Made by a program: the position numbers and the translations under genes. Positions 3 to 33,601 of a stretch of DNA of 39,098 nt are shown piece by piece. Every line of letters begins with the position of its first letter. The stretch's first letter is position 1. This DNA comes from Clostridia bacterium. GTDB lineage: Bacteria; Bacillota; Clostridia; Oscillospirales; CAG-272. The notes under the pieces were generated by a model. The model worked only from the letters and a program-made list of their open reading frames with translations. It was not told the origin of the DNA and made no database searches. The stretch spans positions 1 through 39,098 of the forward strand of contig JAFTNJ010000040.1 in the NCBI GenBank assembly GCA_017451915.1, written 5' to 3'.

Positions 3-737
3 TGCGAGAACTCCTACGTAACCGGCTTCTCCGCATTCCTGACCGCAGGTACCCACACCATTAAGATGTACGTAACCGAGGATATGTCCTCTACCTTCCA
101 CTTCCGTAACATTTACCTGCTGGCGCAGGCTCCCGAGACCAACATCACCTTTGACGACAGCAACTTCTCTGCTGAGCTGCCCGCAGCTTTCGCAGGCGAC
201 AACGTAATTAAGGTTGATATGAAGGCCGCTGAAGCAACCGTTGATAAGGTTGTAGAGCTGAAGTCCACCCAGTACAGACTGATCACCTATGTTGACACCG
301 GTGCGGTAGGTATGCACGGCGTTTGTATGTTCGATCCCTCCGGCACGGGTCTGTATCACTACTACCTGGAGCCCGGCGCAAATGATTTCAAGGATGAGAA
401 CGGCAACGGTCCCACCTGGTACCAGGCTTACATCCGTTGGAGCGTTGAGATTCCCGAGGACGGCACCTATGCCGTATGCTTCAACTTCCGTCTGAAGAAC
501 ACCGCTCAGCGTTGGTCCCTGCTTCAGGTTGACAACGCTCAGGTGAAGGATATGATCTGCATGGATTATGCCATCACCGGCGATGTGAACGCTCTGAAGG
601 ACTCCCTGGAGAACTCCTACCTGACCGGTCTGCAGCTCGAGCTGACCAAGGGTACTCACACCCTCACCTTCCGTCTGCCTGACGGTCAAGGTTCTTCTTG
701 GCACTATCGTAACATCTACCTGGTAAAGGTTGCTTAA
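3..737 (+). CDS. C-terminal part of a large repeat-containing, probably surface or secreted beta-sandwich protein (5' truncated by window)
   Basis: The frame is open from the window edge and ends in TAA at 735-737, so the gene starts upstream. The visible 244 residues hold the end of one repeat and one complete repeat of roughly 200 residues. The unit end reads ENSY-TG-(L)T-GTHT, then RNIYL, at 6-119 and again at 609-728. Alternating hydrophobic and aromatic residues, Gly/Asp turns and a GTHT-type closing strand suggest a carbohydrate-binding or Ig-like beta-sandwich, but I do not recognise the family. Lysine is always AAG and arginine mostly CGT, which resembles rpsT and glyS rather than the catabolic genes and suggests high expression. 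No sorting signal or membrane anchor follows the last repeat. A strong terminator follows at 782. The surface location is inferred from repeat architecture only; the N-terminus is not visible. Confidence 0.75.
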   Translation, partial: CENSYVTGFSAFLTAGTHTIKMYVTEDMSSTFHFRNIYLLAQAPETNITFDDSNFSAELPAAFAGDNVIKVDMKAAEATVDKVVELKSTQYRLITYVDTGAVGMHGVCMFDPSGTGLYHYYLEPGANDFKDENGNGPTWYQAYIRWSVEIPEDGTYAVCFNFRLKNTAQRWSLLQVDNAQVKDMICMDYAITGDVNALKDSLENSYLTGLQLELTKGTHTLTFRLPDGQGSSWHYRNIYLVKVA

Positions 738-30228: not shown

Positions 30229-32838
30229 TTATTGCAATCTTTTTTTCAGGTCAAAGAGGAACGACATGCACTCAAAGGGGGAAAGGGTGTTGAGATCCAC
30301 ACCCTTGAGCTCGGCAATGATCTGCTCGTTGATACAGTCGTCGAAGGTGATGAGAGAATCGTCCTTCTCGGCCACCTTCTTTTTGGGACCCATGCCCCCC
30401 TCCCGATGTTCGGCAATGGCCTTGGAGGTGGCCTCCACCGAGGCCAGGATCTCCCGGGCGCGCTTGATGACCTCGTTGGGAAGGCCCGCCAGCTTGGCTA
30501 CCTCAATACCGTAGCTATCGTCGGTGGAACCCCGCACGATCTTGCGCAGGAAGGTAATGCTGTCGCCACGCTTTTTGGCGGCGATATTATAGTTGACCAC
30601 GCCCTCGAACTCCTCCTCCATGGAGGTCAGCTCGTGGTAGTGGGTTGCAAACAGGGTTTTGGCACCGATCTTGCGGCTGTTGGTGTACTCCACAATGGCA
30701 CGGGCAATGCTCATGCCGTCAAAGGTGGAGGTTCCCCGGCCAACCTCGTCGTAAATGATCAGGCTCTTGCGTGTGGCGTTCTTGAGAATATAGGAGACCT
30801 CATTCATTTCCAGCATGAAGGTGGACTGTCCCGACGCCAGATCGTCGGAGGCACCCACACGGGTGAAGACCTTGTCCACCACGCCGATGCGAGCCTCTGC
30901 CGCAGGTACAAAGGAACCGATCTGCGCCATGACGGTGATCAGGGCCACCTGGCGCATATAGGTGGATTTACCCGCCATATTGGGTCCGGTGATCAGCATG
31001 AGGCGATTGGCGGAGGTATCCAGACAAACGTCGTTGGGAACGAAATAGGTATCCTTGACGAACTGCTCCACCACGGGATGGCGACCGTCCTTGATCACGA
31101 TCTCGTCGCTCTCGTTGACCTCGGGACGGACGTAGCGATGCTTGGACGCCACCGTGGCCAGGGAGAGATAGACGTCCAGCTCGGCCAAAAGGGCCGCGGT
31201 GCGCTGGATCCGCGCGCTCTGCTCGGCAACGAAGGCACGGATCTTTTGGAAGATCTCGTACTCCAGGGCGCAGACCTTATCGGCCGCGCCCAGAATGGTG
31301 GCCTCCATGTCCTTGAGCTCCTGGGTAATGTAACGCTCGCAGTTGGAAAGGGTTTGTTTTCGGATGTAACGGTCGGGCACCTGGGAGATCAGGGACTTGG
31401 TGACCTCGATGTAGTAGCCAAAGACCTTGTTGTAGCTGACCTTGAGGGTCTTGATTCCCGTGGCGTCCCGCTCGGCCTGGGCGATCTGCTCGATCATCCC
31501 CTTGCCGTTGGCCATGACCTCCCGGAGATAGTCCACGTCCTTGTCGTAGCCCCGGGCAATGATGCCTCCCTCCCGCAACGAGAAGGGCGGCTCCTCGCAG
31601 ATGGCGGCCACAATGGTATTGTATACGTCGCCCAAAGGATCCAGATCGCTGCAAATGCGGCGTAGCTCCTCGCATTGGCTGTTGGCCAACAGCTCCCGAA
31701 TCTCGGGAAGCACCGCCGCCGTATTGCTCACGGCACGCAGATCCTTACCGTTGGCACTTCCGTAGACGATACGGGTGATCAGACGCTCCAGGTCCAGAAC
31801 GTGGGAAAGCGCCTCGGCCAGCTCCTCACGCAGCATGAAGTTGCCGCAAAATTCCTCCACCGCACTCTGACGGCGGGCAATGGCCGCAGAGTTGAGCAGC
31901 GGATGCTCCACCCACTTGCGGAGCATTCTGGCACCGGCGGCCGTCTTGGTCTTGTCCAGAACCCAGAGCAATGAGCCTCGCTTCTCCTTGGTACGCATGG
32001 ACTCGGTAAGCTCCAGGTTGCGACGGGTGTTGATATCCATTTCCAGATACTGCCCATCGGAATAGACGCTCAGCTCCTTGATGTAGGAGATATCGCTCTT
32101 TTCGGTATCGGCAAGATAGGAAAGCACCGCACCCACGGCGCGGATCATGGCATCGTCCCCCAAATGCTCGGGACGAAGCTGGGAACCAAACTGCTCCTGC
32201 ACCCGCGCGCGGGCCTCGGCAAGCTCAAAGCGAGCGGTCTGCCCGCCCGTGAGCATCATGTCCAGTCGGCTCTCCACAAACTCCCCGATCTCTCCCATAT
32301 GGGTGGGACTGAGGTTGCAAAGGATCTCCCGGGGCTCGTAGGTGCCCAGCTCGTTGCGCAAACGGGCATCCATGTTGTTGCCGTCAAAGGAGGTGGCGTA
32401 GATCTGGGCGGTGGAGATATCGGCAAAGCAGACACCGTAGGAGAACTCCCCCATGTAGAGTCCGCAAAGGTAATTGTTTTTGTGCTCGGTGAGAAGATTG
32501 GTTTCAATCAAAGTGCCGGGAGTGATGACCCGCACCACCTCTCGCCGCACCAGCCCCTTGGCAAGGGCGGGATCCTCGGTCTGCTCACAGATGGCTACCT
32601 TGTAGCCCTTTTCGATGAGCCTGCCAATGTAGACCTCCGAGGAATGAAAGGGAACGCCGCACATGGGAGCGCGCTCGGCCTCGCCGCAATCTCTGCCCGT
32701 GAGGGTCAGCTCCAGCTCGCGGGAGGCAAGGACGGCATCGTCAAAGAACATCTCGTAAAAGTCACCGAGACGGTAAAACAGGAGATAGTCCTTGTACTGC
32801 TCCTTGATCTGAAAATATTGCTCCATCATTGGGGTCAT
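30229..32838 (-). CDS. mutS: DNA mismatch repair protein MutS
   Basis: An 869-residue MutS1 of full length. The mismatch-probing Phe-x-Glu is in LGDFYEMFF. The clamp and lever domains are followed by Walker A GPNMAGKST near residue 616, Walker B IIYDEVGRGTST and ATHYHELT. The C-terminal part includes the predicted beta-clamp/dimer region ending LKKRLQ. AAGGAG is 8 bases before the ATG. It follows the YmcA/YlbF-family gene on the same strand, across a 376-base region of repeats. Confidence 0.98.
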   Translation of the reverse strand: MTPMMEQYFQIKEQYKDYLLFYRLGDFYEMFFDDAVLASRELELTLTGRDCGEAERAPMCGVPFHSSEVYIGRLIEKGYKVAICEQTEDPALAKGLVRREVVRVITPGTLIETNLLTEHKNNYLCGLYMGEFSYGVCFADISTAQIYATSFDGNNMDARLRNELGTYEPREILCNLSPTHMGEIGEFVESRLDMMLTGGQTARFELAEARARVQEQFGSQLRPEHLGDDAMIRAVGAVLSYLADTEKSDISYIKELSVYSDGQYLEMDINTRRNLELTESMRTKEKRGSLLWVLDKTKTAAGARMLRKWVEHPLLNSAAIARRQSAVEEFCGNFMLREELAEALSHVLDLERLITRIVYGSANGKDLRAVSNTAAVLPEIRELLANSQCEELRRICSDLDPLGDVYNTIVAAICEEPPFSLREGGIIARGYDKDVDYLREVMANGKGMIEQIAQAERDATGIKTLKVSYNKVFGYYIEVTKSLISQVPDRYIRKQTLSNCERYITQELKDMEATILGAADKVCALEYEIFQKIRAFVAEQSARIQRTAALLAELDVYLSLATVASKHRYVRPEVNESDEIVIKDGRHPVVEQFVKDTYFVPNDVCLDTSANRLMLITGPNMAGKSTYMRQVALITVMAQIGSFVPAAEARIGVVDKVFTRVGASDDLASGQSTFMLEMNEVSYILKNATRKSLIIYDEVGRGTSTFDGMSIARAIVEYTNSRKIGAKTLFATHYHELTSMEEEFEGVVNYNIAAKKRGDSITFLRKIVRGSTDDSYGIEVAKLAGLPNEVIKRAREILASVEATSKAIAEHREGGMGPKKKVAEKDDSLITFDDCINEQIIAELKGVDLNTLSPFECMSFLFDLKKRLQ

Positions 32839-32896
32839 GGCGGGTACTCCTTTTCTTTTGAAAATGAATCATAAATCGCTAACCACTTGCAAAAAT

Positions 32897-33080
32897 CCCT
32901 CTCCGTCACGCAACGCAAAAACGAATACGTTCGTTTTTTGCGGCGTGCCACCTCTCCCAAAGGGCGAGGCTTGGAAACCAACTCCCAATAACGAACCGTT
33001 CGGAAAGACGGTTGGACATTGAGGAACCTACGTTAGGCTCTCCCGCTGGGAGAGCTCCCGCCAAAAGGCGGGTGAGAGGG
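32897..33080. repeat. Type B dispersed repeat, copy 3 (expanded)
   Basis: It has CCCTCTCCGTCACGC...GCGTGCCACCTCTCCC, an inserted GCAAAAAACGAA-type palindrome around 32925, and GGCTCTCCC-GCT-GGGAGAGC with CCCGCC-AAAA-GGCGGG-TGAGAGG at the right. The last stem is G-C where copy 2 has A-T, a compensatory change. Confidence 0.8.
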
Positions 33081-33106
33081 CGATCCTTTGGAAAGATTTC
33101 CTTCAC

Positions 33107-33213
33107 ACGCCGCAGGCGTATTTCACCGATGCTTGCCATCGATTTCACTCGCCGCAGGCGAATTTCACACGGCAAAGCCGTATTTCACTGCAAAAACCGC
33201 AGGCGGTTTTTGC
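33107..33213. repeat. Tandem array of five hairpins with GTGAAAT spacers
   Basis: Units begin at 33107, 33127, 33149, 33169 and 33190. The stems are ACGCC/GGCGT, CGATG/CATCG, TCGCC/GGCGA, ACGGC/GCCGT and GCAAAAACC/GGTTTTTGC. Plus-strand spacers are ATTTCAC(T/C); on the minus strand, the direction of the flanking genes, they read GTGAAAT. The first unit begins two bases after the stop of the YmcA-like gene. Stem sequences differ completely but pairing is kept in every unit. Confidence 0.85.
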
Positions 33214-33214
33214 T

Positions 33215-33601
33215 TTAGTGGCATCCTCCGCAGGTGGCGCAGTTGTGAGTGCAACCCGAGGGCTGCTCCCCGGTGATCTGGGTCATAATGGTGTTGTTGA
33301 CGGCGTTCATCAGATCGTTGACCTCGGCCTGTACCCGGTTGAGCTCCACAAATACGGGATGCTCGGCGATGAGCTTGTAGAGCTCGTCGATGCGCTTTTG
33401 AATGACCTCGATCATTTGCATATCGCGGTCGGCTCTGGCCACCTCGGCCTGCATAGCCTTTTGCTGAACCTCGTACTCGATCATATATTTCTTCAGCTGA
33501 GGGTTGTCCTCGTAATCCTTCTTCGCCTTTTCCAGGGCGATCAGGCGGGCATCATCCTTCAGCTTCTTTCCAAGCTCTGCTGCAAGTTCAAAAATTTCCA
33601 T
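33215..33601 (-). CDS. YmcA/YlbF-family protein with cysteine-rich tail (RicA-like)
   Basis: A 128-residue helical protein of the Com_YlbF family. The helical core includes KAKKDYEDNPQLKKYMIEYEVQQKA and PVFVELNRVQAEVNDLMNAVNNT. The C-terminus carries Cys117, Cys121, Cys124 and Cys127 plus His128 in GCTHNCATCGGCH, a likely metal or Fe-S ligand set. In Bacillus, YmcA, YlbF and YaaT form the Fe-S RicAFT complex that governs RNase Y cleavage, competence and sporulation. Gene order next to miaB and before mutS equals ymcB-ymcA in B. subtilis, so orthology to ymcA is inferred from position. AAAGGA lies 10 bases before the ATG; the miaB gene ends 44 bases upstream. Confidence 0.88.
   Translation of the reverse strand: MEIFELAAELGKKLKDDARLIALEKAKKDYEDNPQLKKYMIEYEVQQKAMQAEVARADRDMQMIEVIQKRIDELYKLIAEHPVFVELNRVQAEVNDLMNAVNNTIMTQITGEQPSGCTHNCATCGGCH

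Follow-up and report, generated by a model that had tools for sequence, protein, structure and literature searches.

What is the tandem array of hairpins that lies between a ymcA-like gene and mutS in this Clostridia genome, and is it a part of the regulation of these two genes? The window, by which we mean the whole stretch of 39,098 nucleotides that was analysed, carries the array at 33107-33213 as five paired hairpins with four exact heptamers between them, ATTTCAC on the plus strand and GTGAAAT on the strand of the flanking genes. The features of the locus are as follows.

30229-32838, minus strand: mutS, downstream of the array on the gene strand
33102-33106, plus strand: partial heptamer TTCAC, at the far end of the array
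33107-33119: hairpin 1, ACGCC-GCA-GGCGT as read on the plus strand
33120-33126, plus strand: heptamer ATTTCAC (GTGAAAT on the gene strand)
33127-33141: hairpin 2, CGATG-CTTGC-CATCG
33142-33148, plus strand: heptamer ATTTCAC
33149-33161: hairpin 3, TCGCC-GCA-GGCGA
33162-33168, plus strand: heptamer ATTTCAC
33169-33181: hairpin 4, ACGGC-AAA-GCCGT
33182-33188, plus strand: heptamer ATTTCAC
33190-33213: hairpin 5, 10-bp stem GCAAAAACCG/CGGTTTTTGC, adjoining the ymcA-like stop codon at 33215-33217
33137-33215, minus strand: match to Rfam Gut-1 (RF01706), 57.8 bits against a gathering score of 50
33215-33601, minus strand: ymcA-like gene, YlbF/YmcA family (PF06133)

The first-pass annotation had described five hairpins with a common seven-base spacer, fully paired stems and a position directly after the ymcA-like stop, and all of this holds: each of the five stems is wholly Watson-Crick on its own, and the array stops one base short of the stop codon of the PF06133 gene. 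The spacing of 20-22 bases that it gave applies to the first four hairpins, the longer fifth one following after one extra base, and the GCA/TGC loop that it called frequent is present in two of the five, the remaining loops being CTTGC, AAA and CAGG on the plus strand. Heptamer pairs did not arise in shuffles of the window, and the segment 33090-33225 folds better than shuffled versions on both strands (z -4.2 and -4.0). Neither strand of this 136-base piece forms all five units in its predicted minimum-energy fold: only hairpins 2, 4 and 5 do so, while hairpins 1 and 3, which are similar to one another, pair together. An intrinsic terminator was rejected because 33090-33225, in agreement with the annotation, contains no T-tract at either end of the array, and a CRISPR array was rejected because the repeats are only 7 nt long and the intervals between them are palindromic. 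A second repeat-like stretch with short inverted repeats (32880-33100) lies between the array and mutS; at the corresponding locus of a related genome, G001 (L103), a stretch of this type was not seen and CTATTCA-type heptamers precede mutS instead.

Comparison of orthologous loci indicates that the array is not a fixed feature of this gene pair. A ymcA-like match was obtained in 47 of 60 genomes, and 30 loci were read: the window's own, 28 from congeners and one from another genus. An array stands right behind the ymcA stop in four of these (G000, which is the window's own genome, G001, G003 and G017), and in G017 it is followed by a gene other than mutS; one further locus (G032) has a remnant with one heptamer. 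In 17 of the 30 loci the last ymcA codon and mutS are separated by a plain gap of 26-57 bases that is free of any array, and eight have a longer gap with no heptamer within the up to 500 bases examined. Since most of the orthologous loci that were read have no array, a fixed ymcA-mutS regulatory element was rejected; what the window carries behind its ymcA-like stop is an insertion. Among the four loci with arrays, whole stems differ in sequence yet still pair when compared by eye.

The array is one copy of a repeat family that is dispersed through the genomes of related gut Clostridia. Our genome set comprised the window's own genome and 59 relatives, all draft assemblies, together with 14 control genomes. 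The heptamer-pair pattern was found in 42 of the 60, some matches being plainly non-hairpin. Gut-1 was detected at an E-value of 0.001 in 44 of the 60 genomes and above its gathering score in 36, the window's own included, compared with one and none, respectively, of the 14 controls. The annotation's proposal that further arrays be sought was thus borne out in the same genome and in relatives, and the GTGAAAT arrays that it mentioned from other Clostridia do occur in these relatives, as members of a family already described as Gut-1. Since many matches to the pattern are expected by chance in collection-wide scans, by our own arithmetic, we claim no taxonomic range from them.

Three further loci in the window's genome (on contigs C39, C49 and C66) each consist of GTGAAAT-hairpins followed by ATTTCAC-hairpins and each lie behind a tRNA gene. 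Among 25 such two-armed GTGAAAT copies, counted in one orientation, a tRNA gene lies within 250 bp before the first arm in 17, and in nine the second arm is followed within 700 bp by an S23 (PF05635) gene, two of the 25 having fewer than 200 bases there. Both array orientations occur within one element, and they also occur beside genes on either strand. The copy in the window has a single heptamer polarity with no second, inverted arm, and neither an S23 gene nor a tRNA accompanies it. The two inverted arms, the tRNA tails and the S23 genes, which are the context of importance, all lie outside the window, and the first reading is supported in part. Convergent arrays in G021 (L052) were considered as a transposon with a gene between them, which was rejected on inspection of the open reading frame list alone, where nothing transposase-like was seen. 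A two-armed, hairpin-type array is also present on a viral contig (L347), and two unverified faecal scaffolds that are likewise filed as phage or viral (L555 and L556) carry hairpin-type arrays with S23, one of them behind tRNA-Arg.

The tRNA-associated copies reveal more of the element's architecture. In G000 and G001 the elements start with a terminator directly behind the CCA end of the tRNA, and all 66 tRNA calls in the examined loci of these genomes end in CCA. The tRNA-Gln(ttg), tRNA-Leu(gag) and tRNA-Ser(gga) genes of G001 share one terminator sequence, and because it follows three different tRNAs we take it to be part of the element. The tRNA-Ala, His, Leu(gag) and Leu(tag) genes carry an array in G001 and none in G000, with 5′ flanks that are alike in both. 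Homology on the 3′ side was not found between the two genomes for tRNA-Ala, His and Leu(gag), the 123 bases available at Leu(tag) being too few for a judgement; it is also missing at several tRNA pairs that carry no element. Neither a target duplication nor the right end of the element was found in these tRNA flanks. The gene behind the second arm is an S23 gene, a remnant or another gene (G000:C39, G024:C131), and in those S23 elements that we looked at the array lies between the terminator and a promoter-like motif. Behind tRNA-Leu(gag) of G001 (L057), the element and its flanks form a 309-bp tandem duplication. The 3′ flanks of tRNA genes in G000 and G001 also hold a different repeat, located behind plain tRNA terminators (G000:C25:26266, G000:C59:6651) and ending in a tRNA-like 3′ tail (..TTGGGTTCAGAATCCC..). 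S23 elements of several heptamer labels lie at the 3′ end of a methyltransferase-like gene (L169, L178, L205, L208, L100), which, from its C-terminus, we take to be of the rlmD/rumA type.

The association with S23 is stronger when the S23 genes are the starting point. PF05635 gave 101 matches in 39 of the 60 genomes, from which 90 loci were taken. An array score that is blind to the heptamer reached at least 4 upstream of S23 in 55 of 85 loci, compared with 12 of 80 downstream and 4 of 90 random pieces, these pieces having come from ymcA loci, a few of which themselves hold arrays. In 46 of 80 loci a tRNA or tmRNA precedes S23 on the same strand at a distance of up to 700 bp (another ten, in which the upstream sequence was short and held no tRNA, were dropped, so that the floor is 46 of 90) and in none of 330 control points, the control loci being mostly tRNA-free; among the heptamer-labelled S23 loci the figure is 30 of 50. 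At least two heptamers in each orientation are present upstream of S23 in 46 of 55 hairpin-type loci, with the two possible arm orders represented 35 and 11 times, and an inverted arm behind S23 occurs in one of 54 such loci, in contrast to the arm-S23-arm arrangement seen elsewhere. Counts of Gut-1 and S23 across the 60 genomes are correlated (rho 0.68, uncorrected for kinship), with both present in 35 genomes, Gut-1 only in nine, S23 only in four and neither in 12, many of the assemblies being incomplete.

The heptamer differs between groups of S23 genes and includes GTGAAAT, ATGAAATC, AGTTATATT, GTGAAGT, AATGATG, ATGATAT, GCGATAT and others. To judge from a quick tree of 82 S23 proteins, in which 34 of 79 inner branches are unresolved, and from labels drawn up by eye after the sequences had been seen, the heptamer type largely follows the S23 protein clade: for 55 labelled rows and 13 heptamer types the tree requires 18 changes, and each of 200 shuffles requires at least 34 (mean 39.9). 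Some labels recur in distant clades, and a few (L172, L213) probably reflect a neighbour. The window's GTGAAAT is the word of S23 label A, a group that includes the S23 gene on contig C49 of the same genome; in this genome PF05635 is matched on contigs C49 and C63, and the window is on C35.

Pairing among the copies was examined in an alignment of 13 of the 25, the other 12, with the most diverged among them, being left out for truncation, a different number of units or divergence. In these fuller copies 96.0% of cells are paired, and 17 of 37 pairs have changed on both sides, in 49 cells, which supports the pairing kept through compensating change that had been proposed from the window, as do the orthologous loci compared by eye. 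None of 500 shuffles matches the observed values for pairing or two-sided change, and slid versions score far lower; both controls are lenient, as a single row supplied the structure and the rows are related to one another. Further pair types number 26, a value reached by 56 of the 500 shuffles. In a long-range helix, formed by the left half of the first hairpin and an inverted copy of it at the centre, 4 of 11 pairs have changed on both sides.

The hairpins are, in addition, polarised by strand. Among 186 units, 128 pair completely and have loops of at most five bases (83 of them distinct, near-identical copies being counted); on the ATTTCAC strand, again with copies counted, GNA accounts for 59 of 87 triloops and TNC for none, and the closing pair is C-G in 123 of 128. 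GNA triloops are tied to stable DNA mini-hairpins. Nearest-neighbour energies were rejected as proof of a DNA form, since the mean difference between strands over 29 distinct units with GNA loops was zero with both DNA and RNA parameters, and the triloop argument for DNA thus leans on this background. Upstream of S23, hairpins with a GA/GA tandem mismatch, for which we draw on what is known of tandem G.A pairs, number 23 under a strict rule (with four double counts) in 15 of 55 arrays, compared with four for the next kind of tandem mismatch, none for TC/TC, and two in 54 downstream controls; a looser rule that counts each hairpin once gives 25 in 20 of 55, with six for the next kinds and one for TC/TC. 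Since the perfecting of palindromes by mutation would remove such mismatches, we read their retention, almost exclusively on one strand, as selection on one folded strand, of RNA or DNA.

The reading that we prefer, with a probability of roughly 0.55, is that the array represents one arm, standing alone, of a selfish S23-type element and that the heptamer is the recognition word of its protein; the presence of S23 behind only nine of the 25 two-armed copies slightly lowered our confidence in it. A full element in this order begins with its own terminator directly after the CCA end of a tRNA; then come an arm of three to four hairpins with a single heptamer word between them, a central part that pairs with the first stem, a second, inverted arm with some three hairpins, an outward promoter and the S23 gene, many copies being without one or more of these parts. 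The hairpins may hold the heptamers single-stranded at steps of about 20 nt in one folded strand, either RNA or single-stranded DNA, and S23, an Avd-like four-helix bundle, would bind this folded array. Copies might spread in trans with enzymes from elsewhere. The heptamer, in this reading, stays with its S23 protein, and hairpins between heptamers are the form seen in this order. What the sequences show directly is the copies and their architecture, the covariation, the insertion polymorphism and the tie between heptamer and protein clade; binding, the single-strand form, movement and the moving enzyme are our inference.

Several other explanations bear on the same observations. Gut-1 might act as a non-coding RNA or as a stability element at the 3′ end of the ymcA message, its hairpins slowing decay or directing processing of a ymcA-mutS transcript; the Rfam match above the gathering score, the position between co-oriented genes and the covariation all speak for this, but the short array-free gap at 17 of 30 orthologous loci, the occurrence of both orientations in one element and beside genes on either strand, and the location of the array between a terminator and a promoter-like motif in S23 elements make it unlikely. 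A role as an operator, with S23 or some other protein bound to duplex heptamers and controlling a promoter by the last of them, could account for the TTGNNN-16..18-TANNNT (-35/-10) motif present in the last 170 nt of 32 of 55 S23 loci, as against 11 of 300 random pieces that are mostly coding sequence. Yet binding to duplex DNA calls for no conserved hairpins, and solo copies occur without S23 (the window, L054, L066 and L069), so we regard an operator as quite improbable.

The wholesale replacement of stems with retention of pairing would also be expected if template switching during replication kept the palindromes perfect without any function; such a process predicts neither heptamers tied to protein clade nor GA/GA mismatches kept on one strand, and we give it very little weight. 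Units made of a short word beside a hairpin and dispersed through a genome are, finally, what characterises REP/BIME repeats, whose movement depends on a RAYT (Y1 HUH) transposase recognising the word together with the hairpin. The likeness to our units ends there, since they have thirteen words, stems that are not conserved in sequence and no RAYT in the window's genome, an 87% complete draft that gave no match to Y1_Tnp (PF01797). Among the 29 genomes with at least five Gut-1 matches S23 is present in 27 and Y1_Tnp in eight, with counts that do not correlate with Gut-1 (rho -0.03), and an origin through RAYT is not supported and seems highly improbable to us.

The selfish S23-type element that we favour has counterparts among described systems. 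Gut-1 is given as a non-coding RNA, from the human gut only, in the available part of its description (Weinberg, 2010; PMC2864571); the hairpins and GUGAAAU linkers are the same, but here they form part of dispersed elements tied to tRNAs and S23 genes. Intervening sequences of 23S rRNA with an S23/IVP gene, which the accessible text of PMC4990558 calls a selfish element, share the PF05635 gene, inverted ends and insertion at structured RNA genes; our elements differ in that the heptamer arms are split by hairpins, are both upstream of S23 and lie behind tRNA tails, and the window copy has neither S23 nor rRNA. Heptamer direct repeats such as TAACTGA are described, in the part of PMC4679880 seen, from Beggiatoaceae, Cyanobacteria and Bacteroidetes with no evident transfer mechanism; they too are seven-base words in dispersed intergenic arrays, but without hairpins between the words, and the terms 'S23', 'intervening' and 'four helix' are absent from the main text of that paper. 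PF05635 resembles Avd of diversity-generating retroelements, and alignment of sequence and structure suggests homology, according to the portion of PMC10053308 available. Among the open-licence papers searched we recognised none that ties S23 to heptamers or to Gut-1.

Among S23 genes sampled outside the order, roughly half carry period-7 repeats without hairpins, in many cases inverted around the gene. In other classes of the phylum an S23 match was found in 35 of 199 genomes, 28 loci were taken and 24 had enough upstream sequence; a hairpin-array score of at least 4 was reached in one of the 24 and a tRNA was present in none, so that, as far as sampled, we see the hairpin form in this order alone. 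Period-7 repeats were scored by requiring, in the 300 bp upstream, a stretch of 28 nt with a self-similarity of 75% or more at lag 7, these cut-offs being of our own choosing. Lag 7 passes at 12 of the 24 other-class loci, with two at lag 11 and none at the other lags from 5 to 12, and at 15 of 21 S23 loci of this order that have no hairpin label, compared with 1 of 120 control pieces; a second control of random pieces from the other-class loci gave 19 of 96, which we attribute to the arrays contained in those short loci. Two of the other-class genes (L526 and L528) have upstream repeats of period 11 and not 7. For S23 genes on plasmids (16 loci from 24 records, mostly Cyanobacteria), lag 7 passes upstream in eight, downstream in six and on either side in nine, whereas lag 8 passes in one upstream and two downstream, and none of the 32 outer ends passes at lag 7. 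The upstream and downstream stretches are inverted copies of one another in 10 of 24 other-class, 7 of 16 plasmid and 4 of 21 unlabelled loci of this order; with partners from other loci there are no inverted matches, and direct matches number 4, 2 and 1, respectively. Of the other-class loci, three are situated within 23S rRNA and two, both of the same genus, within RNase P RNA, four of the five having inverted arms. In the RNase P cases, L529 and L531 (1229-2003), the S23 gene and its heptamer arms sit within an otherwise full-length RNase P RNA match.

It seems to us evenly balanced whether S23/IVP proteins and seven-base arrays make up one widespread class of selfish elements across phyla, in which rRNA intervening sequences, RNase P RNA inserts, tRNA-tail elements, cyanobacterial plasmid copies and many orphan heptamer arrays would be forms or relics and each S23 clade would read its own heptamer. 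S23 proteins are long-known passengers of rRNA to which no function has been given, and descriptions of heptamer repeats offer no mechanism for their spread; a match of protein and word by clade would make the two direct partners and explain the Gut-1 family. The copies next to S23 genes hint at what S23 recognises, and the thirteen protein-word pairs offer a set for comparing specificity. Three of the cyanobacterial plasmid S23 genes (L540, L544 and L547) lie between cas genes (cas6/cas4, cas10/cmr3), and the 23S rRNA IVP is listed among the associations of CRISPR adaptation modules in the part of PMC10910872 that was available.
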